Assembly: GCF_021917145.1 (NCBI RefSeq) | Contig: NC_061074.1 | Coordinates: 11,351,051 to 11,415,050 of the forward strand | DNA length: 64,000 bases | Source: Hypomesus transpacificus | Lineage: Eukaryota > Chordata > Actinopteri > Osmeriformes > Osmeridae | Direction: 5' to 3' | Shown: positions 3,001 through 49,225 of the stretch, piece after piece | How the letters are laid out: each line of letters begins with the position of its first letter | Numbering within the stretch: position 1 is the stretch's first letter | Notes under the pieces: generated by a model | The model's input: only the letters and a program-made list of their open reading frames with translations | Databases searched by the model: none | What the model was told of the DNA's origin: nothing | Translations under genes and position numbers: made by a program

Positions 3001-3700
3001 AAAAGAATCAAATCTACGCTGTGCGTGGGTTTGGACTTGACGACGACTTTGCCTAATAGAGACTAAGATGCAGTGGCTTTCTGGTTCATGTGAAGTAGAG
3101 ATGGGAGGGATGAATAAAAAATATATTGAACAAATGTGAAGACGTTTTGATTATTTATTACTTTCGGCACTAATACTAAGTTAAGGTTGTTTGGTAGAAT
3201 ACTTATTGTAGAGCAATATCAAACATTAAAGTCATCTAGTCCTACAAAATAAATAGACCTACTAAAATATTGTAAAGACAAAGGCTTATTCCTTTTATGG
3301 ATCTTTGTGGTTTGGCTGCATACAAGTTTTGTCTAGCATTTTTATTATGTTTTTTGCTTAACCGATCCACTGACCACTAAAGGGGTACGCTTAGCATAAG
3401 ACATTTTTTAAAGAAGAAGAAATATATATTTAAAATAACTAACATTTAACTAAATGTAATAAATATATATATATATAGAAAAGGACAAGATAAAAAGATT
3501 TATAAATGTTAGTTGTAAAATATTTGACTAAAAATAATAATTCTTAGGCGAAGTAGCCTAGGCTATATTTGGGATATATTGGTTCAAACTTATTCAACCA
3601 CATCACTTGATGATTGATGCAATTATCTTTAGGCTAACGTAAATCCATGTTGTTTGAGGTTGGTTTAAAAAAAGTTAATAACCAATATCATGCCAAATGA
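1..3700. other. No gene recognised; AT-rich flank
   Basis: I find no coding exon here that I recognise. The stretch is AT-rich with short GT and CA runs. An AATAAA at 3113-3118 is followed by GT-containing sequence, so part of it could be the long 3' UTR of a plus-strand gene to the left, but nothing proves that. The segment 2560-2790 is not low in complexity and contains several homeodomain-like TAAT cores; it is treated as a finding. Confidence 0.4.
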
Positions 3701-11369: not shown

Positions 11370-11566
11370 GTACATTCACATTTAGTTATTTAGCAGACGC
11401 TCTTATCCAGAGCAATTTACAGTAAGTAAGTCAGACATTCCCCCGAGGCAAGTAGGGTGAAGTGCCTTGCCCAAGAACACAACATAATTTGGCTCAGCCG
11501 GGAATCGAACTGGCGACCTTCAGATTACTAGCCCGATTCCCTAACCGCTCAGCCACGTGACTACCT
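11370..11566 (-). mobile_element. tRNA-derived SINE (minus orientation)
   Basis: Read on the minus strand, the element starts with a tRNA-like head. An A-box-like TGGCTGAGCGG is followed about 40 bp later by a B-box-like GGTCGCCAGTTCGATTC, the two internal RNA polymerase III promoter blocks. The body contains a segment ending in GAGCGTCTGCTAAATAA, a tail common in fish genomes. A second, more decayed copy lies at about 47345-47515 in the opposite orientation. Intact-looking promoter boxes do not show that it is transcribed. Confidence 0.75.
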
Positions 11567-21731: not shown

Positions 21732-22400
21732 GCACAGACACTAAGCTGGACAGAACGTGCATACTGAATGGAACAGTCCTGTCAGAACACAACATCTGCT
21801 GTCAGCTATGTGTAATGTTTACCACCTGAATAACGCCAATCTTTCAATTATTTTTTACATCAGAACCTACTCCAACCAAACCTAAACCTGAAGAGGACAT
21901 TACTGATATAACCAGTCAAAGTACTTTCAAGCTTCATCTTTAACCAAAGTCTATAAAATACGAATTGACATTACACAAAAATGTAAAGAAATGGGACCCA
22001 ATTATATTAATTTTTATTGTTGACATTTCTTTCTGTAAATGTTTCCACTACAGACACAGTCGTTGCGTTTACAGCCAAACTACAAGTCCACCACAGCTAT
22101 CCAAAGCACGAGGGGGTCCTGAGGTTTACTGATGTACTAATCAACAAAGGAGGAGGTTACAGTCCTGACACTGGCATCTTCACCTGCCCTCAGCCTGGCT
22201 TCTACCACTTCACTGCTCACATGTCTACTTACGGCAAGGCTCAGTGTGGCATCTTTAAAAATGAAAAGAGTGTTGTGTCTATGTACCACAGCACCCTCCC
22301 CAACAAGCTCAGCCAGATGGCTAGTATCAGCAGTGTGATCCAGCTCCTTCCAGGAGACAAGGTTTGGGTCAACCTGTGGGTACCCTGTAGGAATGACATA

Positions 22401-24061
22401 CAGTGCCCTCCAAAAGTATTGGAACAGTGAGGCGAATTCCTTTATTTTTGCTGTAGACTGAAAACATTTGGGCTTGACATCAAATAATGAACGTGAGACC
22501 AGAGATCAACGTTTCAGCTTTTATTTCCAGGTATTTACATCAGGATCTGATGCACAACTAAGAAAATATCACATTTTGTTTGAATCCACCCATTTGTCAT
22601 GTGATCAAAAGTATTGGAACAGATATACTTAAAACATATTTAAGTGAATAAGACTTAATATTTAGTTGCAAATCCTTTGCTTTCAATAACTGCAGCAAGT
22701 CTGTGACCCATTGACGTCACCAAACTTTTGCATTCTTCCTTTTTGATGCTTTCCCAGGCTTTCACTGCAGCCTCTTTCAGTTGTTGTTTGTTTTGTGGGG
22801 TTCCTCCCTTCAGTCTCCTCTTAAGCAGGTAAAATGCATGCTCTATAGGGTTTAAGTCTGGAGATTGACTTGGCCAGTCTAATACCTTCCATTTCTTGCC
22901 CCTGATGAACTCCTTTGTTGTTTTGGCAGTGTGTTTTGGGTCGTTATCTTGCTGCATGATGAAGGCTCTGCCAATCAGTTTGGTTGCATCTTTCCTTAAA
23001 TTGGCAGACAAAATGTTTCTGTAGACTTCCGAGTTCATTTTGCTGCTGCCATCATGTGTTACATCCTCAATGAAGATTAATGAGCCCGTCCTAGAAGAAG
23101 CCATGCAAGCCCAAGCCATGACATTACCTCCACCGTGTTTCACAGATGAGCTTGTGTGTTTGGGATCATGAGCAGTTCCTTTCTTTCTCCAAACTTTAGC
23201 CTTTCCATCACTTTGGTAAAAGTTAATCTTTGTCTCATCAGTCCATAAAACTTTGTCCCAGAATTTTTGAGGTTCATCTCTGTACTTTTTGGCAAATTCC
23301 AGCCTGGCCTTCCTATTCTTCTTGCTGATGAGTGGTTTGCATCTTCTGGTGTAGCCCTTGTACTTTTGTTCATGAAGTCTTCTGCGAACAGTAGATAGTG
23401 ATACCTTCACTCCTGCCATCTGGAGGTTGTTGCTGATCTCACTAACAGTTGTTTTAGGGTCTTTCTTTACAGCTCTCACAATGTTTCTGTCATCAACTGC
23501 TGATGTTTTCCTTGGTCTACCTGTTCGACGTCTGTTACTTAGTACACCAGTAGTTTTCTTCTTCTTCAGGACATTCCAAATGGTTGTACTGGCTATGGCC
23601 AATGTTTCTGCAATGGCTCTGATTGATTTTCCATCTTCTCTAAGACTCACAATTGCTTGTTTTTCACCCAAAGACAACGCTCTGGTTTTCATGTTGTTTT
23701 CACCTCTGAATACAGTCTGCATAGACAAAACCTATCTTACCCAATCTGAACCTGAGTGTAGACATTCAGTGGTATTTATTGATTGAATAATGTATGTAAT
23801 AGGACACACCTGGGCAACAAAACACACCTGTCAGTCACATGTTCCAATACTTTTGCTCACGTGACAAATGGGTGGGTTCGAACAAAAAGGTGATATTTTC
23901 TAATTTGTGCATCAGATCCTGATGTAAATACCTGGAAATAAAAGCTGAAACGTTGATCTCTGGTTTCACATTCATCGTTTGATGTCAAGCCCAAATGTTT
24001 TCAGTCTACAGCAAAAATAAAGGAATTGGCCTCACTGTTCCAATACTTTTGGAGGGCACTG
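22401..24061 (-). mobile_element. Tc1-like transposon, copy 1
   Basis: This 1661-bp element starts CAGTGCCCTCCAAAAGTATT and ends in its inverse, with a TA on each side (22399-22400 and 24062-24063). The inverted repeats are about 220 bp long. Each carries the AAAAGTATTGGAAC motif twice, at the outer tip and near the inner edge, as in IR/DR-type Tc1 elements. The transposase is on the minus strand. It interrupts a C1q-domain exon and differs from copies 2 and 3 at only a few positions that I noticed. Confidence 0.95.
22655..23728 (-). CDS. Tc1-family transposase (copy 1), open frame
   Basis: The 357-aa frame has no break. Residues about 20-120 form paired helix-turn-helix DNA-binding folds, with an AT-hook-like GRPRK between them. 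The catalytic domain shows the DDE triad: D in LWTDETK, D in MQQDNDPKHTAK, and E in SPDLNPIEH with 34 residues between the last two (DD34E). The GRPR motif and basic segments could serve nuclear import. Translation may start at the first ATG or at the inner one (MKTRALSLG). The enzyme would excise and reinsert the element at TA sites. Protein sequence matches copy 3 exactly as far as I compared. Confidence 0.93.
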   Translation of the reverse strand: MSMQTVFRGENNMKTRALSLGEKQAIVSLREDGKSIRAIAETLAIASTTIWNVLKKKKTTGVLSNRRRTGRPRKTSAVDDRNIVRAVKKDPKTTVSEISNNLQMAGVKVSLSTVRRRLHEQKYKGYTRRCKPLISKKNRKARLEFAKKYRDEPQKFWDKVLWTDETKINFYQSDGKAKVWRKKGTAHDPKHTSSSVKHGGGNVMAWACMASSRTGSLIFIEDVTHDGSSKMNSEVYRNILSANLRKDATKLIGRAFIMQQDNDPKHTAKTTKEFIRGKKWKVLDWPSQSPDLNPIEHAFYLLKRRLKGGTPQNKQQLKEAAVKAWESIKKEECKSLVTSMGHRLAAVIESKGFATKY

Positions 24062-24194
24062 TATTTGCAAGTGTTGACAATGACACTGTTTTTGTTGGAT
24101 TCCGTTTAGGTTAGTCCACCTTTGTTCGTTGTGCAGTGTCTGATCAGATATTATACCATCCACACACTGTGTACATCACCATGTGGTTACTGTC

Positions 24195-27632: not shown

Positions 27633-27642
27633 TAGCAAATAA
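27633..27642. repeat. Target-site duplication, left copy
   Basis: TAGCAAATAA lies directly left of the foldback element and recurs exactly at 41575-41584 directly right of it. Nine or ten bases are duplicated, depending on whether the last A is counted as part of the element. Confidence 0.85.
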
Positions 27643-28525
27643 CCGAGGTGAAGTTAGTTTCATATTCGACATTCGACATTCGTCTCACATTCGGAAGACG
27701 CTACTTTGCAGCGCCGAGTTAGGGACCGGGTGAAAATTACCCATACAATTTTGAAAAATGATGACATTTATAATATTTGTATGACTATAAAACCTCAAAC
27801 AAACAGCAGAGCATTCCAACAATGTCTGGCCTACTTCCAAACCCTTTACTTTTTTAATAAAACATTTAAAAAAATGATAGAAAATCGCTAATCTCTGAAA
27901 ATAGCATGAAATCATTGATAATCTCAATAACTTTTTCAAACTTGGGTCAAAAAATCTCGAATATACACCAGATTATTCTAATAGTGTCTGGCCTACTTCC
28001 ACACCCTTTACTTTTTCAATAAAACATTTAAAAAAATGATAGAAAATCGCTAATCTCTGAAAATAGCATGAAATCCTTGCTAATCTCAATATATTTTCCA
28101 AATTTGGGTCAAAAAATCTCAAATACACACCAGATTATTCTAATAGTGTCTGGCCTACTTCCACACCCTTTACTTTTTCAATAATGTTTTAAAAAAAATG
28201 ATAGAAAATTGCTAATCTCTGAAAATAGCATGAAATTGTTGATAATCTCAATATCTTTTCCAGACTTGGGTCAAAAAATCTCTAATATACACCAGATTAT
28301 TATAATAGTGTCTGTCCTACTTCCACACCCTTTACTTTTTCAATAAAACATTTTAAAAAATGATAGAAAATAAATCGCTAATCTCTGAAAATAGCATGAA
28401 ATCTTCACTAATCTCAATCAATAACTTTTATGGAACCCCATATATATTATGATTACAGCCTTTGCTTATTTTCATTGCCTGTTTCTTTTTTATCTTAAGC
28501 GTGCATTTAAACACAGTGGCACAAG
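27643..28525 (+). repeat. Left inverted arm of foldback element
   Basis: The arm is 883 bp with about four satellite units (marker TGTCTGGCCTACTTCC at about 27823, 27986, 28149 and, with one change, 28311). The outer tip and the inner end match the right arm in inverse orientation. An 84-codon open frame in the tip appears in both arms because the DNA is duplicated, not because a protein is encoded. Confidence 0.9.
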
Positions 28526-29052
28526 TTGTGGCAATGAGTTTTGCCAAACAAAGAACCAGATCTCTGACAATAAATGACAACACAACACCAGGCTTAGGTC
28601 TCAATCATGTCTCTCTCAGCTCTGAAAGCCGGAGGACCATCTTTTATAGGGCACAAGAATGTAAACATAGATTGTGACAGTCAGACAGTATTGACGTTAC
28701 GACAGACTCAGAGAAAGAGATTCACTGCTCCGAACACCATGACAACTCTCAGACTAGAGAGTTCATATGGAGCTCTAATTGTAGTCATGACAAGGAACGT
28801 TTAGCCAGAACTTTCTCCTGACCCCGAACATCTATTAATCCTGACACATAGACACAATCTACTCTTATTAATAGCAAGTTTACATGAGAACTTACTAACT
28901 AGTATCCAATGACTAGTTCTATTGATAAGTGAATAATGTAAGCACATAGGAAATCCCAATTTCTTCATAACTCTTCTTTCATTGGCTCCCTTGCATAGAC
29001 CTTGCGCGCGTGTGTGTGAGTGTTTGCGTCATCAACCCTAGTTGACCATATA
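28526..29052. other. Loop of foldback element, left part
   Basis: Unique sequence between the left arm and the nested Tc1. It contains short open frames with no recognised domain and no DDE signature. The rest of the loop is 30711-30975, which ends in a (CTGT)n/(CT)n run touching the inner end of the right arm. Confidence 0.5.
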
Positions 29053-30710
29053 CAGTGCCCTCCAAAAGTATTGGAACAGTGAGGCCAATTCCTTTATTTT
29101 TGCTGTAGACTGAAAACATTTGGGCTTGACATCAAACGATGAATGTGAAACCAGAGATCAACGTTTCAGCTTTTATTTCCAGGTATTTACATCAGGATCT
29201 GATGCACAAATTAGAAAATATCACCTTTTTGTTCGAACCCACCCATTTGTCCCGTGAGCAAAAGTATTGGAACATATGACTGACAGGTGTGTTTTGTTGC
29301 CCAGGTGTGTCCTATTACATACATTATTCAATCAATAAATACCACTGAATGTCTACACTCAGGTTCAGATTGGGTAAGATAGGTTTTGTCTATGCAGACT
29401 GTATTCAGAGGTGAAAACAACATGAAAACCGGAGCGCTGTCTTTGGGTGAAAAACAAGCAATTGTGAGTCTTAGAGAAGATGGAAAATCAATCAGAGCCA
29501 TTGCAGAAACATTGGCCATAGCCAGTACAACCATTTGGAATGTCCTGAAGAAGAAGAAAACTACTGGTGTACTAAGTAACAGACGTCGAACAGGTAGACC
29601 AAGGAAAACATCAGCAGTTGATGACAGAAACATTGTGAGAGCTGTAAAGAAAGACCCTAAAACAACTGTTAGTGAGATCAGCAACAACCTCCAGATGGCA
29701 GGAGTGAAGGTATCACTATCTACTGTTCGCAGAAGACTTCATGAACAAAAGTACAAGGGCTACACCAGAAGATGCAAACCACTCATTAGCAAGAAGAATA
29801 GGAAGGCCAGGCTGGAATTTGCCAAAAAGTACAGAGATGAACCTCAAAAATTCTGGGACAAAGTTTTATGGACTGATGAGACAAAGATTAACTTTTACCA
29901 AAGTGATGGAAAGGCTAAAGTTTGGAGAAAGAAAGGAACTGCTCATGATCCCAAACACACAAGCTCATCTGTGAAACACGGTGGAGGTAATGTCATGGCT
30001 TGGGCTTGCATGGCTTCTTCTAGGACGGGCTCATTAATCTTCATTGAGGATGTAACACATGATGGCAGCAGCAAAATGAACTCGGAAGTCTACAGAAACA
30101 TTTTGTCTGCCAATTTAAGGAAAGATGCAACCAAACTGATTGGCAGAGCCTTCATCATGCAGCAAGATAACGACCCAAAACACACTGCCAAAACAACAAA
30201 GGAGTTCATCAGGGGCAAGAAATGGAAGGTATTAGACTGGCCAAGTCAATCTCCAGACTTAAACCCTATAGAGCATGCATTTTACCTGCTTAAGAGGAGA
30301 CTGAAGGGAGGAACCCCACAAAACAAACAACAACTGAAAGAGGCTGCAGTGAAAGCCTGGGAAAGCATCAAAAAGGAAGAATGCAAAAGTTTGGTGACGT
30401 CAATGGGTCACAGACTTGCTGCAGTTATTGAAAGCAAAGGATTTGCAACTAAATATTAAGTCTTATTCACTTAAATATGTTTCTATATCTGTTCCAATAC
30501 TTTTGCTCACATGACAAATGGGTGGATTCAAACAAAATGTGATATTTTCTTAGTTGTGCATCAGATCCTGATGTAAATACCTGGAAATAAAAGCTGAAAC
30601 GTTGATCTCTGGTCTCACGTTCATTATTTGATGTCAAGCCCAAATGTTTTCAGTCTACAGCAAAAATAAAGGAATTCGCCTCACTGTTCCAATACTTTTG
30701 GAGGGCACTG
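29053..30710 (+). mobile_element. Tc1-like transposon, copy 2, nested in the loop
   Basis: This 1658-bp element is flanked by TA (29051-29052 and 30711-30712), with the same terminal repeats as copies 1 and 3. It is inserted in the loop of the foldback element, so it arrived after that element. Transposase is on the plus strand. Confidence 0.95.
29386..30459 (+). CDS. Tc1-family transposase (copy 2), open frame
   Basis: A 357-aa frame without breaks and with the same DD34E triad as copy 1 (WTDET, QQDNDPKHT, SPDLNPIEH). The only amino-acid difference I saw is Gly for Arg in MKTGALSLG, near the start. Being open in all three copies argues for recent spread. Confidence 0.93.
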   Translation: MSMQTVFRGENNMKTGALSLGEKQAIVSLREDGKSIRAIAETLAIASTTIWNVLKKKKTTGVLSNRRRTGRPRKTSAVDDRNIVRAVKKDPKTTVSEISNNLQMAGVKVSLSTVRRRLHEQKYKGYTRRCKPLISKKNRKARLEFAKKYRDEPQKFWDKVLWTDETKINFYQSDGKAKVWRKKGTAHDPKHTSSSVKHGGGNVMAWACMASSRTGSLIFIEDVTHDGSSKMNSEVYRNILSANLRKDATKLIGRAFIMQQDNDPKHTAKTTKEFIRGKKWKVLDWPSQSPDLNPIEHAFYLLKRRLKGGTPQNKQQLKEAAVKAWESIKKEECKSLVTSMGHRLAAVIESKGFATKY

Positions 30711-30936
30711 TAGGTGTCAAGCAAATGGTCACCAGAGTTTGCGTCTCCATCTATTCCAGGTTTGGGAGTAGGCCTCTCTTTCCACACAAGGAATGCTGAA
30801 CACAGTATCATTTTATACAGACTAAAAAAAGATACATCTTCAATTTTTCTGACAGGCAGACACTCAAAGTGATGGGGTGTGTCAAGGGGTTACATCAGAG
30901 TAATCTTACACATACCTCTCTCTCTAATTCGCGCTC

Positions 30937-30976
<40 letters not shown>
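30937..30976. repeat. (CTGT)n(CT)n run at arm/loop boundary
   Basis: Five CTGT-type units pass into a CT run that stops exactly where the right inverted arm begins. A simple repeat at this boundary is absent from the left side (28526 onward), so the two loop edges are not symmetric. Confidence 0.85.
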
Positions 30977-30977
<1 letters not shown>

Positions 30978-33900
30978 TGTGCCACTGTGTTTAAATGCAC
31001 GCTTAAGATAAAAAAGAAACAGGCAATGAAAATAAGCAAAGGCTGTAATCATAATATATATGGGGTTCCATAAAAGTTATTGATTGAGATTAGTGAAGAT
31101 TTCATGCTATTTTCAGAGATTAGCGATTTATTTTCTATCATTTTTTAAAATGTTTTATTGAAAAAGTAAAGGGTGTGGAAGTAGGACAGACACTATTATA
31201 ATAATCTGGCGTATATTAGAGATTTTTTGACCCAAGTCTGGAAAAGATATTGAGATTATCAACGATTTCATGCTATTTTCAGAGATTAGCAATTTTCTAT
31301 CATTTTTTTTAAAACATTATTGAAAAAGTAAAGGGTGTGGAAGTAGGCCAGACACTATTAGAATAATCTGGTGTGTATTTGAGATTTTTTGACCCAAATT
31401 TGGAAAATATATTGAGATTAGCAAGGATTTCATGCTATTTTCAGCGATTAGCGATTTTCTATCATTTTTTTAAATGTTTTATTGAAAACGTAAAGGGTGT
31501 GGAAGCAGGCCAGACACTATTAGAATAATCTGGTGTGTATTTGAGATTTTTTGACCCAAGTTTGGAAAAGATATTGAGATTATCAATGATTTCATGCTAT
31601 TTTCAGAGATTAGCGATTTTCTATCATTTTTTTAAATGTTTTATTGAAAAAGTAAAGGGTGTGGAAGTAGGCCAGACACTATTAGAATAATCTGGTGTGT
31701 ATTTGAGATTTTTTGACCCAAGTTTGGAAAAGATATTGAGATTAGCAAGGATTTCATGCTATTTTCAGAGATTAGCAATTTTCTATCATTTTTTTAAATG
31801 TTTTATTAAAAAAGTAAAGGGTGTGGAAGTAGGCCAGACACTATTAGAATAATCTGGTGTATATTCGAGATTTGTTGACCCAAGTTTGGAAAAGGTATTG
31901 AGATTAGCAAGGATTTCATGCTATTTTCAGAGATTAGCGATTTTCTATCATTTTTTTAAATGTTTTATTGAAAAAGTAAAGGGTGTGGAAGTAGGCCAGA
32001 CACTATTAGAATAATATGGTGTGTATTTGAGATTTTTTGACCCAAGTTTGGAAAAAATATTGAGATTAGCAAGGATTTCATGCTATTTTCAGAGATTAGC
32101 GATTTTCTATCATTTTTTTAAATATTTTATTGAAAAAGTAAAGGGTGTGGAAGTAGGCCAGACACTATTAGAATAATATGGTGTATATTCGAGATTTTTT
32201 GACCCAAGTTTGAAAAAGTTATTGAGATTATCAATGATGTCATGCTATTTTCAGAGATTAGCGATTTTCTATCATTCTTTTAAATGTTTTATTGAAAAAG
32301 TAAAGGGTGTGGAAGTAGGCCAGACACTATTAGAATAATATGGTGTGTATTTGAGATTTTTTGACCCAAGTTTGGAAAAGATATTGAGATTAGCAAGGAT
32401 TTCATGCTATTTTCAGAGATTAGCGATTTTCTATCATTTTTTTTAATGTTTTATTGAAAAAGTAAAGGGTGTGGAAGTAGGCCAGACACTATTAGAATAA
32501 TATGGTGTATATTCGAGATTTTTTGACCCAAGTTTGAAAAAGTTATTGAGATTATCAATGATTTCATGCTATTTTCAGAGATTAGCGATTTTCTATCATT
32601 CTTTTAAATGTTTTATTGAAAAAGTAAAGGGTGTGGAAGTAGGCCAGACACTATTAGAATAATCTGGTGTGTATTTGAGATTTTTTGACCCAAGTTTGGA
32701 AAAGATATTGAGATTAGCAAGGATTTCATGCTATTTTCAGAGATTAGCGATTTTCTATCATTTTTTTAAATGTTTTATTGAAAAGGTAAAGGGTGTGGAA
32801 GTAGGCCAGACACTATTAGAATAATCTGGTGTGTATTTGAGATTTTTTGACCCAAGTTTGGAAAAGATATTGAGATTATCAATGATTTCATGCTATTTTC
32901 AGAGATTAGCGATTTTCTATCATTTTTTTAAATGTTTTATTGAAAAAGTAAAGGGTGTGGAAGTAGGCCAGACACTATTAGAATAATCTGGTGTATATTC
33001 GAGATTTTTTTAAACAAGTTTGAAAAAGTTATTGAGATTATCAATGATTTCATGCTATTTTCAGAGATTAGCGATTTTCTATCATTTTTTAAAATGTTTT
33101 ATTGAAAAGGTAAAGGGTGTGGAAGTAGGCCAGACACTATTAGAATAATCTGGTGTGTATTTGAGATTTTTTGACCCAAGTTTGGAAAAGATATTGAGAT
33201 TATCAATGATTTCATGCTATTTTCAGAGATTAGCGATTTTCTATCATTTTTTAAAATGTTTTATTGAAAAAGTAAAGGGTGTGGAAGTAGGCCAGACACT
33301 ATTAGAATAATCTGGTGTGTATTTGAGATTTTTTGACCCAAGTTTGGAAAAGATATTGAGATTAGCAAGGATTTCATGCTATTTTCAGAGATTAGCGATT
33401 TTCTATCATTTTTTTAAATGTTTTATTGAAAAAGTAAAGGGTGTGGAAGTAGGCCAGACACTATTAGAATAATCTGGTGTGTATTTGAGATTTGTTGACC
33501 CAAGTTTGGAAAAGATATTGAGATTAGCAAGGATTTCATGCTATTTTCCGAGATTAGCGATTTTCTATCATTTTTTTAAATGTTTTATTGAAAAGGTAAA
33601 GGGTGTGGAAGTAGGCCAGACACTATTAGAATAATCTGGTGTATATTCGAGATTTTTTGACCCAAGTTTGGAAAAGGTATTGAGATTAGCAAGGATTTCA
33701 TGCTATTTTCAGAGATTAGCGATTTTCTATCATTTTTTAAAATGTTTTATTGAAAAAGTAAAGGGTGTGGAAGTAGGCCAGACACTATTAGAATAATATG
33801 GTGTGTATTTGAGATTTTTTGACCCAAGTTTGGAAAAGATATTGAGATTAGCAAGGATTTCATGCTATTTTCAGAGATTAGCGATTTTCTATCATTTTTT

Positions 33901-36900
33901 TTTATGTTTTATTGAAAAAGTAAAGGGTGTGGAAGTAGGCCAGACACTATTAGAATAATATGGTGTATATTCGAGATTTTTTGACCCAAGTTTGAAAAAG
34001 TTATTGAGATTATCAATGATTTCATGCTATTTTCAGAGATTAGCGATTTTCTATCATTCTTTTAAATGTTTTATTGAAAAAGTAAAGGGTGTGGAAGTAG
34101 GCCAGACACTATTAGAATAATCTGGTGTGTATTTGAGATTTTTTGACCCAAGTTTGGAAAAGATATTGAGATTAGCAAGGATTTCATGCTATTTTCAGAG
34201 ATTAGCGATTTTCTATCATTTTTTTAAATGTTTTATTGAAAACGTAAAGGGTGTGGAAGCAGGCCAGACACTATTAGAATAATCTGGTGTGTATTTGAGA
34301 TTTTTTGACCCAAGTTTGGAAAAGATATTGAGATTATCAATGATTTCATGCTATTTTCAGAGATTAGCGATTTTCTATCATTTTTTTAAATGTTTTATTG
34401 AAAAAGTAAAGGGTGTGGAAGTAGGCCAGACACTATTAGAATAATCTGGTGTGTATTTGAGATTTTTTGACCCAAGTTTGGAAAAGATATTGAGATTAGC
34501 AAGGATTTCATGCTATTTTCAGAGATTAGCAATTTTCTATCATTTTTTTAAATGTTTTATTAAAAAAGTAAAGGGTGTGGAAGTAGGCCAGACACTATTA
34601 GAATAATCTGGTGTATATTCGAGATTTGTTGACCCAAGTTTGGAAAAGGTATTGAGATTAGCAAGGATTTCATGCTATTTTCAGAGATTAGCGATTTTCT
34701 ATCATTTTTTTAAATGTTTTATTGAAAAAGTAAAGGGTGTGGAAGTAGGCCAGACACTATTAGAATAATATGGTGTGTATTTGAGATTTTTTGACCCAAG
34801 TTTGGAAAAAATATTGAGATTAGCAAGGATTTCATGCTATTTTCAGAGATTAGCGATTTTCTATCATTTTTTTAAATATTTTATTGAAAAAGTAAAGGGT
34901 GTGGAAGTAGGCCAGACACTATTAGAATAATATGGTGTATATTCGAGATTTTTTGACCCAAGTTTGAAAAAGTTATTGAGATTATCAATGATGTCATGCT
35001 ATTTTCAGAGATTAGCGATTTTCTATCATTCTTTTAAATGTTTTATTGAAAAAGTAAAGGGTGTGGAAGTAGGCCAGACACTATTAGAATAATATGGTGT
35101 GTATTTGAGATTTTTTGACCCAAGTTTGGAAAAGATATTGAGATTAGCAAGGATTTCATGCTATTTTCAGAGATTAGCGATTTTCTATCATTTTTTTTAA
35201 TGTTTTATTGAAAAAGTAAAGGGTGTGGAAGTAGACCAGACACTATTAGAATAATATGGTGTATATTCGAGATTTTTTGACCCAAGTTTGAAAAAGTTAT
35301 TGAGATTATCAATGATTTCATGCTATTTTCAGAGATTAGCGATTTTCTATCATTCTTTTAAATGTTTTATTGAAAAAGTAAAGGGTGTGGAAGTAGGCCA
35401 GACACTATTAGAATAATCTGGTGTGTATTTGAGATTTTTTGACCCAAGTTTGGAAAAGATATTGAGATTAGCAAGGATTTCATGCTATTTTCAGAGATTA
35501 GCGATTTTCTATCATTTTTTTAAATGTTTTATTGAAAAGGTAAAGGGTGTGGAAGTAGGCCAGACACTATTAGAATAATCTGGTGTGTATTTGAGATTTT
35601 TTGACCCAAGTTTGGAAAAGATATTGAGATTATCAATGATTTCATGCTATTTTCAGAGATTAGCGATTTTCTATCATTTTTTTAAATGTTTTATTGAAAA
35701 AGTAAAGGGTGTGGAAGTAGGCCAGACACTATTAGAATAATCTGGTGTGTATTTGAGATTTTTTGACCCAAGTTTGGAAAAGATATTGAGATTAGCAAGG
35801 ATTTCATGCTATTTTCAGAGATTAGCGATTTTCTATCATTTTTTTAAATGTTTTATTGAAAAGGTAAAGGGTGTGGAAGTAGGCCAGACACTATTAGAAT
35901 AATATGGTGTATATTCGAGATTTTTTGACCCAAGTTTGAAAAGGTTATTGAGATTATCAATGATTTCATGCTATTTTCAGAGATTAGCGATTTTCTATCA
36001 TTTTTTAAATGTTTTATTGAAAAAGTAAAGGGTGTGGAAGTAGGCCAGACACTATTAGAATAATCTGGTGTATATTCGAGATTTTTTTAAACAAGTTTGA
36101 AAAAGTTATTGAGATTATCAATGATTTCATGCTATTTTCAGAGATTAGCGATTTTCTATCATTTTTTAAAATGTTTTATTGAAAAGGTAAAGGGTGTGGA
36201 AGTAGGCCAGACACTATTAGAATAATCTGGTGTGTATTTGAGATTTTTTGACCCAAGTTTGGAAAAGATATTGAGATTATCAATGATTTCATGCTATTTT
36301 CAGAGATTAGCGATTTTCTATCATTTTTTAAAATGTTTTATTGAAAAAGTAAAGGGTGTGGAAGTAGGCCAGACACTACTAGAATAATCTGGTGTGTATT
36401 TGAGATTTTTTGACCCAAGTTTGGAAAAGATATTGAGATTAGCAAGGATTTCATGCTATTTTCAGAGATTAGCGATTTTCTATCATTTTTTTAAATGTTT
36501 TATTGAAAAAGTAAAGGGTGTGGAAGTAGGCCAGACACTATTAGAATAATCTGGTGTGTATTTGAGATTTGTTGACCCAAGTTTGGAAAAGATATTGAGA
36601 TTAGCAAGGATTTCATGCTATTTTCCGAGATTAGCGATTTTCTATCATTTTTTTAAATGTTTTATTGAAAAAGTAAAGGGTGTGGAAGTAGGCCAGACAC
36701 TATTAGAATAATCTGGTGTATATTCGAGATTTTTTGACCCAAGTTTGGAAAAGGTATTGAGATTAGCAAGGATTTCATGCTATTTTCAGAGATTAGCGAT
36801 TTTCTATCATTTTTTAAAATGTTTTATTGAAAAAGTAAAGGGTGTGGAAGTAGGCCAGACACTATTAGAATAATATGGTGTGTATTTGAGATTTTTTGAC

Positions 36901-39900
36901 CCAAGTTTGGAAAAGATATTGAGATTAGCAAGGATTTCATGCTATTTTCAGAGATTAGCGATTTTCTATCATTTTTTTTTATGTTTTATTGAAAAAGTAA
37001 AGGGTGTGGAAGTAGGCCAGACACTATTAGAATAATATGGTGTATATTCGAGATTTTTTGACCCAAGTTTGAAAAAGTTATTGAGATTATCAATGATTTC
37101 ATGCTATTTTCAGAGATTAGCGATTTTCTATCATTCTTTTAAATGTTTTATTGAAAAAGTAAAGGGTGTGGAAGTAGGCCAGACACTATTAGAATAATCT
37201 GGTGTGTATTTGAGATTTTTTGACCCAAGTTTGGAAAAGATATTGAGATTAGCAAGGATTTCATGCTATTTTCAGAGATTAGCGATTTTCTATCATTTTT
37301 TTAAATGTTTTATTGAAAAGGTAAAGGGTGTGGAAGTAGGCCAGACACTATTAGAATAATATGGTGTATATTCGAGATTTTTTGACCCAAGTTTGAAAAG
37401 GTTATTGAGATTATCAATGATTTCATGCTATTTTCAGAGATTAGCGATTTTCTATCATTTTTTAAATGTTTTATTGAAAAAGTAAAGGGTGTGGAAGTAG
37501 GCCAGACACTATTAGAATAATCTGGTGTATATTCGAGATTTTTTTAAACAAGTTTGAAAAAGTTATTGAGATTATCAATGATTTCATGCTATTTTCAGAG
37601 ATTAGCGATTTTCTATCATTTTTTAAAATGTTTTATTGAAAAGGTAAAGGGTGTGGAAGTAGGCCAGACACTATTAGAATAATCTGGTGTGTATTTGAGA
37701 TTTTTTGACCCAAGTTTGGAAAAGATATTGAGATTATCAATGATTTCATGCTATTTTCAGAGATTAGCGATTTTCTATCATTTTTTAAAATGTTTTATTG
37801 AAAAAGTAAAGGGTGTGGAAGTAGGCCAGACACTATTAGAATAATCTGGTGTGTATTTGAGATTTTTTGACCCAAGTTTGGAAAAGATATTGAGATTAGC
37901 AAGGATTTCATGCTATTTTCAGAGATTAGCGATTTTCTATCATTTTTTTAAATGTTTTATTGAAAAAGTAAAGGGTGTGGAAGTAGGCCAGACACTATTA
38001 GAATAATCTGGTGTGTATTTGAGATTTTTTGACCCAAGTTTGGAAAAGATATTGAGATTAGCAAGGATTTCATGCTATTTTCCGAGATTAGCGATTTTCT
38101 ATCGATTTTTTAAATGTTTTATTGAAAAAGTAAAGGGTGTGGAAGTAGGCCAGACACTATTAGAATAATCTGGTGTATATTCGAGATTTTTTGACCCAAG
38201 TTTGGAAAAGGTATTGAGATTAGCAAGGATTTCATGCTATTTTCAGAGATTAGCGATTTTCTATCATTTTTTAAAATGTTTTATTGAAAAAGTAAAGGGT
38301 GTGGAAGTAGGCCAGACACTATTAGAATAATATGGTGTGTATTTGAGATTTTTTGACCCAAGTTTGGAAAAGATATTGAGATTAGCAAGGATTTCATGCT
38401 ATTTTCAGAGATTAGCGATTTTCTATCATTTTTTTTAATGTTTTATTGAAAAAGTAAAGGGTGTGGAAGTAGGCCAGACACTATTAGAATAATATGGTGT
38501 ATATTCGAGATTTTTTGACCCAAGTTTGAAAAAGTTATTGAGATTATCAATGATTTCATGCTATTTTCAGAGATTAGCGATTTTCTATCATTCTTTTAAA
38601 TGTTTTATTGAAAAAGTAAAGGGTGTGGAAGTAGGCCAGACACTATTATAATAATCTGGTGTGTATTTGAGATTTTTTGACCCAAGTTTGGAAAAGATAT
38701 TGAGATTAGCAAGGATTTCATGCTATTTTCAGAGATTAGCGATTTTCTATCATTTTTTTAAATGTTTTATTGAAAAGGTAAAGGGTGTGGAAGTAGGCCA
38801 GACACTATTAGAATAATATGGTGTATATTCGAGATTTTTTGACCCAAGTTTGAAAAGGTTATTGAGATTATCAATGATTTCATGCTATTTTCAGAGATTA
38901 GCGATTTTCTATCATTTTTTAAATGTTTTATTGAAAAAGTAAAGGGTGTGGAAGTAGGCCAGACACTATTAGAATAATCTGGTGTATATTCGAGATTTTT
39001 TTAAACAAGTTTGAAAAAGTTATTGAGATTATCAATGATTTCATGCTATTTTCAGAGATTAGCGATTTTCTATCATTTTTTAAAATGTTTTATTGAAAAG
39101 GTAAAGGGTGTGGAAGTAGGCCAGACACTATTAGAATAATCTGGTGTGTATTTGAGATTTTTTGACCCAAGTTTGGAAAAGATATTGAGATTATCAATGA
39201 TTTCATGCTATTTTCAGAGATTAGCGATTTTCTATCATTTTTTAAAATGTTTTATTGAAAAAGTAAAGGGTGTGGAAGTAGGCCAGACACTATTAGAATA
39301 ATCTGGTGTGTATTTGAGATTTTTTGACCCAAGTTTGGAAAAGATATTGAGATTAGCAAGGATTTCATGCTATTTTCAGAGATTAGCGATTTTCTATCAT
39401 TTTTTTAAATGTTTTATTGAAAAAGTAAAGGGTGTGGAAGTAGGCCAGACACTATTAGAATAATCTGGTGTGTATTTGAGATTTTTTGACCCAAGTTTGG
39501 AAAAGATATTGAGATTAGCAAGGATTTCATGCTATTTTCAGAGATTAGCGATTTTCTATCATTTTTTTAAATGTTTTATTGAAAAAGTAAAGGGTGTGGA
39601 AGTAGGCCAGACACTATTAGAATAATATGGTGTATATTCGAGATTTTTTGACCCAAGTTTGAAAAAGTTATTGAGATTATCAATGATTTCATGCTATTTT
39701 CAGAGATTAGCGATTTTCTATCATTCTTTTAAATGTTTTATTGAAAAAGTAAAGGGTGTGGAAGTAGGCCAGACACTATTAGAATAATATGGTGTATATT
39801 CGAGATTTTTTGACCCAAGTTTGAAAAAGTTATTGAGATTATCAATGATTTCATGCTATTTTCAGAGATTAGCGATTTTCTATCATTTTTTTAATGTTTT

Positions 39901-41574
39901 ATTGAAAAAGTAAAGGGTGTGGAAGTAGGCCAGACACTATTAGAATAATCTGGTGTATATTCGAGATTTTTTTAAACAAGTTTGAAAAGGTTATTGAGAT
40001 TATCAATGATTTCATGCTATTTTCAGAGATTAGCGATTTTCTATCATTTTTTAAAATGTTTTATTGAAAAAGTAAAGGGTGTGGAAGTAGGCCAGACACT
40101 ATTAGAATAATCTGGTGTGTATTTGAGATTTTTTGACCCAAGTTTGGAAAAGATATTGAGATTATCAATGATTTCATGCTATTTTCAGAGATTAGCGATT
40201 TTCTATCATTTTTTTAAATGTTTTATTGAAAAAGTAAAGGGTGTGGAAGTAGGCCAGACACTATTAGAATAATCTGGTGTGTATTTGAGATTTTTTGACC
40301 CAAATTTGGAAAAGATATTGAGATTAGCAAGGATTTCATGCTATTTTCAGAGATTAGCGATTTTCTATCATTTTTTTAAATGTTTTATTGAAAAGGTAAA
40401 GGGTGTGGAAGTAGGCCAGACACTATTAGAATAATATGGCGTATATTCGAGATTTTTTGACCCAAGTTTGAAAAGGTTATTGAGATTATCAATGATTTCA
40501 TGCTATTTTCAGAGATTAGCGATTTTCTATCATTTTTTAAATGTTGTATTGAAAAAGTAAAGGGTTTGGAAGTAGGCCAGACACTATTAGAATAATCTGG
40601 TGTATATTCGAGATTTTTTTAAACAAGTTTGAAAAAGTTATTGAGATTATCAATGATTTCATGCTATTTTCAGAGATTAGCGATTTTCTATCATTTTTTA
40701 AAATGTTTTATTGAAAAGGTAAAGGGTGTGGAAGTAGGCCAGACACTATTAGAATAATCTGGTGTATATTCGAGATTTTTTGACCCAAGTTTGGAAAAGG
40801 TATTGAGATTAGCAAGGATTTCATGCTATTTTCAGAGATTAGCGATTTTCTATCATTTTTTAAAATGTTTTATTGAAAAAGTAAAGGGTGTGGAAGTAGG
40901 CCAGACACTATTAGAATAATATGGTGTGTATTTGAGATTTTTTGACCCAAGTTTGGAAAAGATATTGAGATTAGCAAGGATTTCATGCTATTTTCAGAGA
41001 TTAGCGATTTTCTATCATTTTTTTTAATGTTTTATTGAAAAAGTAAAGGGTGTGGAAGTAGGCCAGACACTATTAGAATAATATGGTGTATATTCGAGAT
41101 TTTTTGACCCAAGTTTGAAAAAGTTATTGAGATTATCAATGATTTCATGCTATTTTCAGAGATTAGCGATTTTCTATCATTTTTTTAAATGTTTTATTGA
41201 AAAGGTAAAGGGAGTGGAAGTAGGCCAGACACTATTAGAATAATCTGGTGTATATTCGAGATTTTTTTAAACAAGTTTGAAAAAGTTATTGAGATTATCA
41301 ATGATTTCATGCTATTTTCAGAGATTAGCGATTTTCTATCATTTTTTTAAATATTTTATTGAAAAAGTAAAGGGTTTGGAAGTAGGCCAGACATTGTTGG
41401 AATGCTCTGCTGTTTGTTTGAGATTTTATAGTCATACAAATATTATAAATGTCATCATTTTTCAAAATTGTATGGGTAATTTTTACCCGGTCCCTAACTC
41501 GGCGCTGCAAAGTAGCGTCTTCCGAATGTGAGATGAATGTCGAATGTCGAATATGAAACTAACTTCACCTCGCT
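30976..41574 (-). repeat. Right inverted arm of foldback element
   Basis: The arm is about 10.6 kb and is the inverse of the left arm: inner unique segment 30976-31085, satellite array about 31085-41395, then the unique tip ending at 41574. The tip shares the segment TACCCATACAATTTTG (inverse) with the left tip with few differences. Confidence 0.9.
31085..41395. repeat. 162-bp satellite array, about 64 units
   Basis: The unit period measured between GTGGAAGTAG markers (31661, 31823, 31985) is 162 bp. Units are AT-rich with about 90-99% visible identity and differ by variant bases such as TTTAAACAAG in place of TTTGACCCAAG. That variant starts at 33011, 36088, 37545, 39002, 39973, 40620 and 41268, spaced by close to 19, 9, 9, 6, 4 and 4 units. 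A separate block repeats with an offset of 2754 bp (17 units). Open frames inside are short. The array shows higher-order repeats made by unequal exchange. Confidence 0.93.
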
Positions 41575-41584
41575 TAGCAAATAA
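41575..41584. repeat. Target-site duplication, right copy
   Basis: TAGCAAATAA, identical to 27633-27642 on the other side of the foldback element. Confidence 0.85.
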
Positions 41585-43081: not shown

Positions 43082-44536
43082 TTTTGGAAGTGATTTATGT
43101 TCCACTAGGTGAAGCAACAGTTTTTTGGCCATAACCCTTGGATTAAGCTTGGCACATTATGATTTCTCACTGGAATAGAAAATGAACTATACTGATATAT
43201 AATTCATTCATACATTTATTAAATTTAATTTTTTTGTATTTAAGTAACAATCATGAGCTGTTTTATGAAGTTGAAAACAACATGACCGAAATATTAACTT
43301 ATGACTGAAAGTACTAGTTTAACATTTGTATGGTGTTCGGATCTCTTGAACCCTGTTCAATTCACACACACATGTTCACATATTTTTTCAACCATAGCTC
43401 ATTTTCTGTAAAGACATCTCCAATTGAAGTGTAATTAAAGTTAAGAAAAAAGGTGCCTTTCATTATGTTGCAGCCACCCTAGTGTGTGAAACCAAAACGT
43501 TGAATGGGGGCACATGTGCAATGTTATACAACATTATTTTGATGCAGGCCTACAGCTCTGGAAATAATTGAGAGACCACTGCACCTTTTTCTTTCATTTT
43601 CAACAGACCTCGGCCTCTTAAATTGTACCCTTCCGTTTCTCACTCAAAATTGTCCTTCTCAACTTTTTTGAAATTTAAGGAAAAGGTGCGGTGGGTTCGT
43701 AATTTTTTCCAGAGCTGTAGCCTATAGATAAATTGAAAAACATTTCCCAAATTCCACACCAGCGGCGTCCAAATTGGGGATTGGCATACATACATTTTTA
43801 TGGTTGCATTGTTTTAAATCCCAAATAATGGGTCATCAAACCTGCGATCACTGGAATAGTAACAAAACACAAACACTATAAGCTTATGATACCTATGGCA
43901 GTGTGCGCAACATTCCCGACATGTGCTCACTTGCATCGCATGTGGATTGTGGAGGGACCCCATATCAAATTAAGAAAAGAGTGAAAGCGTTGAACAGTAA
44001 CAGTTGCTTTATCCTGTAACACATTTTACCTGTCAACTGTTGGGCAGGATTGCCCTCGAGGTATAGACATAACAAGCTGGGAGCTGTCCCCATAACCATT
44101 CCTTGATTCTTTAAAGGTTTTCGAGTTGTTTGTTTGCTTAGAGCCTACTTTACGAGTTTACCCTTGGATTAGTTACACACCTTCACTTAATTCGTCTTTT
44201 GAGAGACTGATTGCCAAGTTATTGTGAAAACAGATAGAAAGGGAAGGAGGCGGTCCCAGGGCGAAACTCAGGTGAAAGGCTTGAGTTTCACGCTCTTCGG
44301 AAGTATTATAATTGAACCTGGAAGTTCATCGATCAGTCAACGAGATTGGCAGAGCACAAAAGTGATACTAAGCTTTGGTTGGCCATGCGCATCTGTTTGA
44401 GTAGGTTAGAAGACGTGTGCACGGGTGGTGCTCAAGTGTATTTTTCGAACATTTTTTAACACTTTTTCGGACACTTTCACCGTGCTTTATTTCTAGAATT
44501 CAAGACATTGCTCATTTCAGGCATTGCAAAGGGCTG
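43082..44536. other. PGRP 3' UTR and foxg1-type upstream region
   Basis: AT-rich sequence with a mariner-type MITE at 43553-43717. The last few hundred bases before 44537 are less AT-rich and probably hold the forkhead gene's promoter and leader. No further exon was recognised. Confidence 0.4.
43553..43717. mobile_element. 165-bp Tc1/mariner-type MITE
   Basis: It begins CAGCTCTGGAAATAATTGAG and ends in the inverse TTTTTTCCAGAGCTG, with TA on both sides (43551-43552 and 43718-43719). An inner pair, CACTGCACCTTTTT and AAGGTGCGGTG, extends the inverted repeat. It is too short to encode a transposase. Confidence 0.8.
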
Positions 44537-45778
44537 ATGATGAACATGGAGGATTTAAAAGCCCCCGTCAGATTTTTTCACAAATCTTCATTCAGCATCA
44601 GTAGCCTGCTATTCCAACGTGAGGGGGTGATGAGCGAGGTCGGCGCCGCACTGGAAGAGAACCTCTCCCGGAACAATAAGCCCCTGTCCCGAAAGCAGTG
44701 TTTTGGAGAGCCATCTAAAAATAAAGATACCGGCGGTCAAGATGAAAAATGTAGCTTCCATGAGGACAAACGCAGTGACACCAAAGTAAAACATTTGTCA
44801 AGAAAAAACGGAGAGCAAGTTGCGGGAGAAAGGAAGATAAATGGAGGGGTAGAAGGGAAATCTACACCCGAGAAACCTCCGTTTAGCTATAACGCACTTA
44901 TCATGATGGCCATCCGCCAAAGCCCGGAGAGAAGGCTTACACTCAACGGAATTTATGAGTTCATTATGGGGAACTTTCCTTACTATCAAGACAACAGACA
45001 AGGCTGGCAAAATTCAATCCGACACAACCTGAGCCTAAATAAGTGTTTCGTGAAAGTACCACGCCACTATGATGACCCAGGCAAAGGCAACTACTGGATG
45101 CTTGACCCCTCAAGTGACGATGTGTTCATTGGTGGCACTACTGGCAAACTCCGGCGGCGTGCAGCAGTGAGCTCCAGAACGAAGCTTGCTATTAAAAGAG
45201 GTGCCCGTTTAACATCCACCTCCGCAGCCGGTCTTACATTTGCAGGGTCATTTTACTGGCCTGTGCCATCTTTTTTAGCTCTACAACCACCCGCTCACCC
45301 ACACCCGGGCGGAGGGCCATACGTAGGGCATCATCATTCCAATTATGCCACTTCGGTTCTCTCACAACGGTCACATCACATGACTTCCAGTTCTGGAGCC
45401 GACCGTCTGTTCCAAACAAACCAGGAGACGTCTTATTTTGGAGTGAGTTGTGCACAATCCCATCGCCACCAGATGAGCGCAGCGGCAGCTACAACGTTTA
45501 CATCCTCGTCGCTACCTTGCGCTTTGTCTCTCCCTAATCCTTGCTCCCTCAACATGCTCTCTGGACAAGCCAGTTACTTTTACGCGCACCAGGTGCCTCG
45601 TTCAGCGACCTTCGGTATGTGCCAAGAAGATCCCTCCGTCTCCAAGACATCTCAAGTTGGACACTTGTCATCAAAGAATCCACCGTCGGAATATTTAGGA
45701 AGTCTTTATGCAGAGTTCCCTAATTATTTTCCTTCAAGTAGCCCCACGAGCTCCATTTCGTGGGATGCAGGGAAATGA
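44537..45778 (+). CDS. foxg1: Forkhead transcription factor, FoxG1 type
   Basis: A single-exon frame of 413 aa from the ATG at 44537. I preferred this start because it gives [10 protein letters not shown] followed by [12 protein letters not shown], matching the FOXG1 N-terminus. An in-frame ATG lies 120 bp upstream. The forkhead domain covers residues about 113-205 ([62 protein letters not shown], cut here at 20 or fewer). After it come KLRRR and KRGARLTST, as in FOXG1. The long His/Pro/Gln stretch of human FOXG1 is missing; instead there is a Lys/Glu/Ser-rich linker. FOXG1 represses transcription in forebrain progenitors and binds Groucho-type corepressors. Teleosts have several foxg1 paralogues; the short divergent N-terminus suggests one of the b/c/d group rather than foxg1a. 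Confidence 0.9.
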
Positions 45779-47515: not shown

Positions 47516-47547
47516 TACAATAAAAACTAAAATGGCCAAAATATATA

Positions 47548-49208
47548 CAGTGCCCTCCAAAAGTATTGGAACAGTGAGGCGAATTCCTTTATTTTTGCTG
47601 TAGACTGAAAACATTTGGGCTTGACATCAAATAATGAACGTGAGACCAGAGATCAACGTTTCAGCTTTTATTTCCAGGTATTTACATCAGGATCTGATGC
47701 ACAACTAAGAAAATATCACATTTTGTTTGAATCCACCCATTTGTCATGTGAGCAAAAGTATTGGAACAGATATACTTAAAACATATTTAAGTGAATAAGA
47801 CTTAATATTTAGTTGCAAATCCTTTGCTTTCAATAACTGCAGCAAGTCTGTGACCCATTGACGTCACCAAACTTTTGCATTCTTCCTTTTTGATGCTTTC
47901 CCAGGCTTTCACTGCAGCCTCTTTCAGTTGTTGTTTGTTTTGTGGGGTTCCTCCCTTCAGTCTCCTCTTAAGCAGGTAAAATGCATGCTCTATAGGGTTT
48001 AAGTCTGGAGATTGACTTGGCCAGTCTAATACCTTCCATTTCTTGCCCCTGATGAACTCCTTTGTTGTTTTGGCAGTGTGTTTTGGGTCGTTATCTTGCT
48101 GCATGATGAAGGCTCTGCCAATCAGTTTGGTTGCATCTTTCCTTAAATTGGCAGACAAAATGTTTCTGTAGACTTCCGAGTTCATTTTGCTGCTGCCATC
48201 ATGTGTTACATCCTCAATGAAGATTAATGAGCCCGTCCTAGAAGAAGCCATGCAAGCCCAAGCCATGACATTACCTCCACCGTGTTTCACAGATGAGCTT
48301 GTGTGTTTGGGATCATGAGCAGTTCCTTTCTTTCTCCAAACTTTAGCCTTTCCATCACTTTGGTAAAAGTTAATCTTTGTCTCATCAGTCCATAAAACTT
48401 TGTCCCAGAATTTTTGAGGTTCATCTCTGTACTTTTTGGCAAATTCCAGCCTGGCCTTCCTATTCTTCTTGCTAATGAGTGGTTTGCATCTTCTGGTGTA
48501 GCCCTTGTACTTTTGTTCATGAAGTCTTCTGCGAACAGTAGATAGTGATACCTTCACTCCTGCCATCTGGAGGTTGTTGCTGATCTCACTAACAGTTGTT
48601 TTAGGGTCTTTCTTTACAGCTCTCACAATGTTTCTGTCATCAACTGCTGATGTTTTCCTTGGTCTACCTGTTCGACGTCTGTTACTTAGTACACCAGTAG
48701 TTTTCTTCTTCTTCAGGACATTCCAAATGGTTGTACTGGCTATGGCCAATGTTTCTGCAATGGCTCTGATTGATTTTCCATCTTCTCTAAGACTCACAAT
48801 TGCTTGTTTTTCACCCAAAGACAGCGCTCTGGTTTTCATGTTGTTTTCACCTCTGAATACAGTCTGCATAGACAAAACCTATCTTACCCAATCTGAACCT
48901 GAGTGTAGACATTCAGTGGTATTTATTGATTGAATAATGTATGTAATAGGACACACCTGGGCAACAAAACACACCTGTCAGTCATATGTTCCAATACTTT
49001 TGCTCACGGGACAAATGGGTGGGTTCGAACAAAAAGGTGATATTTTCTAATTTGTGCATCAGATCCTGATGTAAATACCTGGAAATAAAAGCTGAAACGT
49101 TGATCTCTGGTTTCACATTCATCGTTTGATGTCAAGCCCAAATGTTTTCAGTCTACAGCAAAAATAAAGGAATTGGCCTCACTGTTCCAATACTTTTGGA
49201 GGGCACTG
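47548..49208 (-). mobile_element. Tc1-like transposon, copy 3
   Basis: A 1661-bp element with TA at 47546-47547 and 49209-49210. Ends and inverted repeats are as in copy 1, and the orientation of the transposase is minus. It lies in intergenic sequence, right of a SINE. Confidence 0.95.
47802..48875 (-). CDS. Tc1-family transposase (copy 3), open frame
   Basis: An unbroken 357-aa frame with the same DNA-binding and DD34E motifs as copy 1, apparently identical to it in amino acids despite silent or non-coding differences, for example GCTAATGAG for GCTGATGAG near 48471. Confidence 0.93.
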   Translation of the reverse strand: MSMQTVFRGENNMKTRALSLGEKQAIVSLREDGKSIRAIAETLAIASTTIWNVLKKKKTTGVLSNRRRTGRPRKTSAVDDRNIVRAVKKDPKTTVSEISNNLQMAGVKVSLSTVRRRLHEQKYKGYTRRCKPLISKKNRKARLEFAKKYRDEPQKFWDKVLWTDETKINFYQSDGKAKVWRKKGTAHDPKHTSSSVKHGGGNVMAWACMASSRTGSLIFIEDVTHDGSSKMNSEVYRNILSANLRKDATKLIGRAFIMQQDNDPKHTAKTTKEFIRGKKWKVLDWPSQSPDLNPIEHAFYLLKRRLKGGTPQNKQQLKEAAVKAWESIKKEECKSLVTSMGHRLAAVIESKGFATKY

Positions 49209-49225
49209 TACATAAGTGATAAAAA

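Follow-up and report, generated by a model that had tools for sequence, protein, structure and literature searches.

A satellite-bearing foldback DNA transposon with unequal arms in the genome of Hypomesus transpacificus

Several described transposons resemble, in part, the smelt element reported here. In Tetris of Drosophila virilis, associated with the TIR-220 satellite, each arm likewise consists of a flanking, a tandem-repeat and an inner domain around a non-coding middle part; its published description gives 8-10 bp duplications, derived arrays of up to 66 units and no known autonomous copy, and sets it apart from the smelt element by repeats of ~220 bp and by their amplification in beta-heterochromatin, which is suggested to disrupt the element (PMC4079207). 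Galileo of Drosophila willistoni, from the P superfamily, is similar in its long inverted repeats and in one copy with ~140-bp tandem repeats, unequal between the arms and with other TEs inserted; as described, it differs in its mostly 7-bp duplications, known transposase and at most 9 repeats per region (PMC4168063). In the Tm1 Mutator/foldback elements of root-knot nematodes, too, the inverted repeats are composite and vary in length, the duplications are most often of 9 bp, the outermost motifs are asymmetric and arm length differs with repeat number; Tm1 is distinguished by repeats of 13-15 bp and a known transposase-encoding group (PMC3169594). Rehavkus also makes 9-bp duplications and has a minisatellite near one end, but it encodes a PHD-finger transposase and is listed from arthropods and annelids (PMC6446971). 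Among vertebrates, Xenopus miDNA4, the Xstir MITEs and zebrafish Angel are comparable as non-autonomous DNA transposons tied to tandem repeats or foldback structure; they are MITEs, however, and the accounts consulted do not describe arms with tens to hundreds of array units (PMC12628747, PMC9659126).

Structure of the element in the window

The window analysed here is a stretch of 64,000 nucleotides of the Hypomesus transpacificus genome (C15:11351051-11415050), to which coordinates without a contig name refer. An earlier sequence-only reading had seen in it one inverted-repeat structure bounded by an exact 10-bp direct repeat, and our analysis confirms this observation with small corrections. 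The copy in the window is a single transposon of 13,933 bp (27,642-41,574), which from left to right comprises a tip, four satellite units, an inner domain, a centre interrupted by a Tc1 element, a second inner domain, 64 satellite units and a tip. The 10-bp string TAGCAAATAA is an exact direct repeat, with exactly two occurrences in the 64 kb, at 27,633 and 41,575. The duplication itself, however, is best read as the exact 9 bp TAGCAAATA on both sides of the element (27,633-27,641 and 41,575-41,583, + strand). Under this reading the ends are ACCGAGG on the left and AGCGAGG on the right, and the tenth repeated base is a chance match, belonging at one occurrence to the flank and at the other to the left end, whose first base it is. 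Between random pairs of places in the window, with a slack of 3 by 3 bases, a 9-bp match was obtained in 144 of 200,000 draws.

The inverted tips are 149 bp each, or 182 bp when counted up to the first satellite anchor: the left one (27,642-27,823, + strand) has an ACC-type end and four ATTCG motifs, the right one (41,393-41,574, - strand) has an AGC-type end, and 178 of the 182 bases are identical with one tip reverse-complemented. The arms pair as 27,640-28,371 with 40,845-41,576 (732 nt, 95% complementary) and as 27,789-28,525 with 30,976-31,712 (737 nt, 97% complementary). These alignments and the tandem-repeat calls bear out the claim that the arms have outer tips and a 162-bp satellite in common, and the early estimate of about 4 against about 64 units holds as well, with 3.9 copies at 27,789-28,418 and 63.9 copies at 31,083-41,427 by TRF, and 4 and 64 by anchor counting. 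With the tips taken up to the anchors, the left array spans 27,824-28,418 (+ strand), its last unit being partial, and the right array 31,083-41,392 (- strand), with higher-order blocks of ~9 units. No further occurrence of tip or satellite was found by blastn in the window outside the element; the exact tip and satellite patterns had no match in IMG/VR, nor had the exact satellite pattern in GTDB contigs.

Inward of the left array lie the inner domain of the c1-side (5') arm (28,419-28,531, + strand), which is found by blastn beside c1 in the fetched copies at 89-100% identity, and the centre part c1 (28,532-29,050, + strand). The centre part c2 (30,713-30,975, + strand) has a CT-rich microsatellite at its end and is followed by a second c1-side inner domain (30,976-31,082, - strand) in place of the usual c2-side one. 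Between c1 and c2, the interval 29,051-30,712 (+ strand) is occupied by a nested Tc1 (29,053-30,710) and its TA duplications (29,051-29,052 and 30,711-30,712). The nested element has inverted repeats of ~224 bp and an open frame of 358 aa from stop to stop (29,383-30,459, + strand) with HTH_Tnp_Tc3_2 and DDE_3 domains; TA duplication, inverted repeats and DDE_3 transposase together mark it as Tc1/mariner. The earlier statement that no transposase is present is therefore inexact: an intact transposase frame lies in the centre, but it belongs to a separate element that is absent at 25 of 27 c1-c2 junctions. The transposase frame is accordingly not the foldback element's own. At 22 of the 27 junctions the sequence is ATAGGT, the empty site in its clean form, and Tc1 excision footprints in the other copies were rejected on this ground. 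Classification of the whole 13.9-kb element as Tc1/mariner was also rejected, the ends showing the 9-bp duplication and TA being found only at the nested Tc1.

A Tc1 lies at the same centre TA in copy L010 (3177-4843), in the opposite orientation, reflecting either an insertion hotspot or an inversion via the Tc1 repeats. Three Tc1 copies occur in the window within 27 kb (22,398-24,064, 29,053-30,710 and 47,545-49,210), the 358-aa transposase frame being open in each; the nested one is 99.4% and 99.7% identical to the other two, with 2 to 7 substitutions between pairs, and the three near-identical copies are the product of a very recent Tc1 burst. A C1q-domain frame at 22,011-22,430 (profile match 1-105 of 127) runs into a Tc1 end and terminates in ...PPKVLEQ, which is encoded by the Tc1 tip, so Tc1 may have broken that gene copy. 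Elsewhere in the window, the frame 44,405-45,778 is a forkhead gene, 94% (388/413) identical to FoxG1c of Osmerus mordax; Dapper, GPCR and Lbh domains are present along with C1q, and a UnaL2 LINE 3' element lies at 11,380-11,433 (- strand).

Copies in the genome and probable exchange between arms

In the assembly searched (437,198,280 bases, 376 contigs), the left tip gave at least 41 matches, 40 of 428 candidates having been scored, and a 27-base tip pattern with at most 2 mismatches allowed located 297 tip ends, 145 of them forward and 152 reverse, against 0 for the reversed control. We fetched 28 stretches round the best-scoring tips, that is, round copies whose tips are most like those of the window. 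Both tips are held by 21 of these, which with the window make 22 complete copies; L021, L022, L026, L027, L028, L029 and L033, without both tips, were left out of the per-copy counts. The complete copies measure 3,139 to 13,933 bp (median 5,482), and the plan of tip, array, centre, array and tip recurs in all of them, with extra or nested pieces in L009, L016, L019 and L024. Exact 9-bp duplications flank 17 of the 22 and three more have one mismatch (20/22 at one mismatch or fewer); L015 has two mismatches and L016 no recognisable duplication. Flanks of up to 149 bp yielded a single 21-bp match and otherwise no homology.

The sequence-only reading had staked its interpretation on finding these tips at other loci with 9-10 bp duplications, and this is what the search returned, at places with unrelated flanks. 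Its view of a mobile foldback element that carries a satellite array to new places is thus supported by duplications at unrelated sites. Such duplications, together with long inverted repeats that contain tandem subrepeats and a middle domain, are features of the foldback-type structural class, and the family shows them all. The mean pairwise distance of c1 among 26 copies is 1.36%, which indicates that the sampled part of the family is young.

Array lengths and copy numbers are given here as assembled. L022 and L021 mark opposite ends of a single element of 39,607 bp (C22:5166924-5206530), with an exact 9-bp duplication, CTGAAGGCA, on both sides and satellite in the same orientation at all four interior places sampled; if unbroken between these four samples, its c2-side array would be 36,925 bp long, or ~228 units. 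Arrays in the copies sampled thus extend from 2.6 to ~228 units. In a copy on C367, satellite was found at 325, 321 and 317 kb, and the sample at 313 kb contained no unit anchor. The short extremes are a copy of 863 bp with an exact 9-bp duplication and one of 1,273 bp with a 7-of-9 duplication. Within the satellite array of L016, a different inverted-repeat element lies at ~1640-3020. Tips with little or no satellite were also observed. Four of them (L047, L049, L063 and L078) have the ~10 bases beyond the tip in common apart from one or two differences, and in another four (L055, L062, L072 and L080) these bases are likewise common to the group; such tips may be parts of larger repeats or form a satellite-free subfamily.

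One ACC and one AGC end are found per copy in 20 of the 22, the tips being otherwise near-identical in most copies. Relative to these ends, the centre has one orientation in 14 copies and the other in 6 (L016 and L034 are without the end pair), a distribution that would follow if the centre flips via recombination between the arms. On the c2 side there is usually a separate inner domain of ~150 bp, detected by an exact 18-base string in 16 of 22 copies; by length it is absent only in the window and L015, and partial in L034. The claim that the arms share their inner ends is correct for the window copy and does not extend to the other 21 complete copies: a c1-side inner domain with its marked unit on the c2 side occurs in the window only (1/22). 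There the two inner domains are identical at 106/106 aligned bases, and the adjoining 110-bp unit is identical as well, for which arm-to-arm copying over ~0.4 kb or more would be the simplest account. In this regard, the window copy suggests that foldback arms rewrite each other.

Probable growth and carriage of the satellite arrays

By 24 informative columns, the 64 units of the right arm fall under 26 labels (28 patterns across all 68 units), and the label string reads as a nine-unit block repeated with variations; it has 15 lag-9 label matches, whereas 5000 shuffles gave 2.7 on average and never more than 9. In four chosen pairs of blocks the differences amount to 5/1457, 11/1457, 8/1457 and 4/1620 bases; the pair R11-19 and R18-26, identical at 1414/1459, is older than these four. 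Growth by single-unit slippage was rejected, adjacent units being no more alike than shuffled ones (881/1000 shuffles reach the observed value). A half-unit period of ~81 bp is borderline (68/162 against a 95% null of 66).

Paired by position, the two arms differ at 14 of 884 bases (tips 4/182, inner edge 2/378, L1-R1 and L2-R62 8/324), are unequal in length, and have in L1-R1 and L2-R62 pairs that are not mutual closest units. In comparison with the two tips, the chosen blocks are more alike (uncorrected p 0.005, 0.012, 0.036 and 0.075), whereas in comparison with the inner edges of the arms they are not (p 0.32 to 1.0). On this ground, the proposal that block growth in the window copy is younger than the last arm exchange was dropped.

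Across the family, 65% of the 346 satellite units read from arms of at least 30 units have their closest relative in the same arm, against 5.9% expected by numbers, with the two ends of the giant array (L021 and L022) treated as separate arms; the share is 24% of 288 units in arms of 11-29 units and 4% of 136 in arms of up to 10. In a block lag test on 21 arrays of at least 13 units, none of 300 shuffles reached the best lag in eight arrays, with lags of 8 (L009+), 3 (L010-), 6 (L011+), 11 (L016+), 22 (L021+), 12 (L022+), 14 (L036+) and 9 (window). A weaker block signal, reached by 2 to 6 of 300 shuffles, was found in L023-, L031 (3), L035, L028 (5) and L027 (6), and the remaining eight arrays gave little or no signal. 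Since L021+ and L022+ are ends of one array, a single array can hold different blocks. Copy-specific higher-order blocks in several long arrays point to growth after insertion, and the units compared here, by their same-arm similarity together with the copy-specific lags, appear to favour amplification after each insertion, to which gene conversion inside the arms could add part of the same-arm similarity.

Array length is uneven between the arms. With the 22 complete copies oriented by their centre, the c2-side array is longer in 15, shorter in 4 and tied in 3 (sign test p 0.019, Wilcoxon p 0.0016), in a sample biased to window-like tips and as one of three orientations or correlates examined. 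The c1-side arrays have a median of 7.2 and a maximum of 21.7 units, against up to 63.6 on the c2 side. Size and arm asymmetry had been called unusual in the window copy, yet the asymmetry is not peculiar to it, all four arrays above 25 units in the complete copies being on the same, c2, side. No such bias follows the end type, the longer arm being at the AGC end in 8 copies and at the ACC end in 9, and the length of the CT tract, measured crudely, was rejected as the cause (rho -0.04, p 0.87, 20 copies). Should unbiased sampling bear out this preference for one arm, it would indicate a directional cause.

Taken together, our findings make it very probable that the family is a young, multicopy, non-autonomous foldback DNA transposon, inserted in trans, whose arrays grow after insertion, mainly on the c2 side, and whose arms recombine. 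Insertion is recorded in the duplications and the unrelated flanks; the enzyme would be a transposase acting in trans, from a class with 9-bp duplications, and the element that it inserts has 162-bp satellite units in each arm. Once inserted, the array would lengthen, mainly on the c2 side, as blocks of several units are duplicated by unequal exchange or by replication, leaving the copy-specific higher-order repeats that are observed; this would place their formation after insertion. Recombination between the arms would account for the flipped centres and, in the window copy, for the inner edge of one arm that reads as a copy of the other.

A different timing, in which arrays would lengthen in a small number of source copies and then be moved ready-made by transposition, long copies being long already at insertion, is unlikely, although part of the evidence agrees with it. 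Large copies of 13.9 and 39.6 kb retain exact 9-bp duplications, and L014 and L027, with unrelated right flanks, have a centre variant in common and c1-side arrays of 8.8 units in both, the two differing by 57 substitutions where 2,756 bases of their centre, arm and tip are aligned; it follows that arrays also travel with the element. Against ready-made arrays, the same two copies have 14.5 and at least 42.8 units in the other array, the block lag varies from copy to copy, and most units of long arms find their nearest relative within their own arm. For the window copy in particular, the long right arm might be ancestral and the left arm shortened by deletion: L3 and L4 best match R63 and R64 (0.988 and 1.0), and L1 and L2 have rare marks in common with R1 and R62, as a single deletion between units 1 and 62 would produce. 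We judge this to be rather improbable, given that L1 and L2 each have a closer match than R1 and R62 (best 0.975 against 0.969, and 0.988 against 0.981), that c1-side arrays are generally short in the family and that the right arm has an inner edge apparently copied from the left one. As for an assembly artefact, either a folded-over contig or a mis-assembled array, the 95-97% complementarity of the arms is what it would produce, but the arms are not identical in sequence or length, nor are the flanks alike, and other, unrelated places show the same plan with duplications, so a fold-over is not credible and an artefact of either kind is extremely improbable.

Growth in place after insertion would also give the family a wider meaning. 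The origin of satellite arrays and higher-order repeats is usually inferred from finished arrays; here, bounded and independently inserted arrays of one unit are available in one genome, in which expansion rate, block size and direction are measurable. We tentatively suggest, as a view with somewhat less in its favour than against it, that the family may be a natural time series of vertebrate satellite birth, each insertion starting with few units and building its own higher-order array in place, on one side, to tens of kb, with the ends and the duplication kept.

The mobilising enzyme and relation to known systems

No autonomous copy or transposase was found among the frames examined in the window centre, L028, L029 and one further satellite-free tip. 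The six frames of c1 gave no Pfam match, and the window copy has no frame of at least 110 aa except the Tc1 frame and its antisense. In L029, a tip with almost no satellite, none of six frames of at least 90 aa is transposase-like by eye, and three frames scanned beside the broken array of L028 had no Pfam match with an E value below 0.21. Two frames, 256 and 258 aa long, lie beside this broken copy (L028 2-1587), and the 258-aa frame has 3 homologues, one of them an uncharacterized Osmerus eperlanus protein. From 100 of the 297 tip places, 42 further short loci were obtained (40 single tips and 2 short pairs), 13 of them with less than 80 bp of satellite; one of the 13, read by frame length over 3.2 kb, has no frame longer than 118 aa.

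As no autonomous relative was found, the Mutator-like label suggested by the sequence-only reading is drawn from the duplication length and the long inverted repeats only, and it is quite possible, though not what we favour, that the mobilising enzyme comes from another superfamily. The observed 9 bp fall within the range of 8-11 bp given for MULE duplications in a 2019 review, which also holds that vertebrate MULE reports were mis-identified (PMC6446971). On the other side, the accounts of Tetris (PMC4079207) and of Tm1, the latter with its transposase group (PMC3169594), assign foldback elements whose duplications measure 8-10 bp to Mutator.

Compared by plan, from its published description, Tetris appears to be matched closely by the smelt element. 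The satellite and the tip of the latter show no significant similarity, unlike the Tetris repeats, which are described as sharing 37 bp with the flanking domain (PMC4079207); derivation of the smelt satellite from the tip was rejected, 47 of 300 shuffled tips reaching the local score. Among the search results listed, titles and abstracts, with weak coverage of subscription journals, yielded no foldback element with such arms from fish or other vertebrates. In the related Hypomesus nipponensis, the reported share of tandem repeats in the genome is 14.61%, compared with 3.26% and 5.83% for two further fish species (PMC12083275), and elements of this kind could be a partial explanation for that high share. 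The smelt element differs from Tetris in its 162-bp units, its fish host and a 39.6-kb copy with both ends and the duplication in place, and what it adds to that system is the host, the size, the one-sidedness of the arrays and the many copies at different stages.
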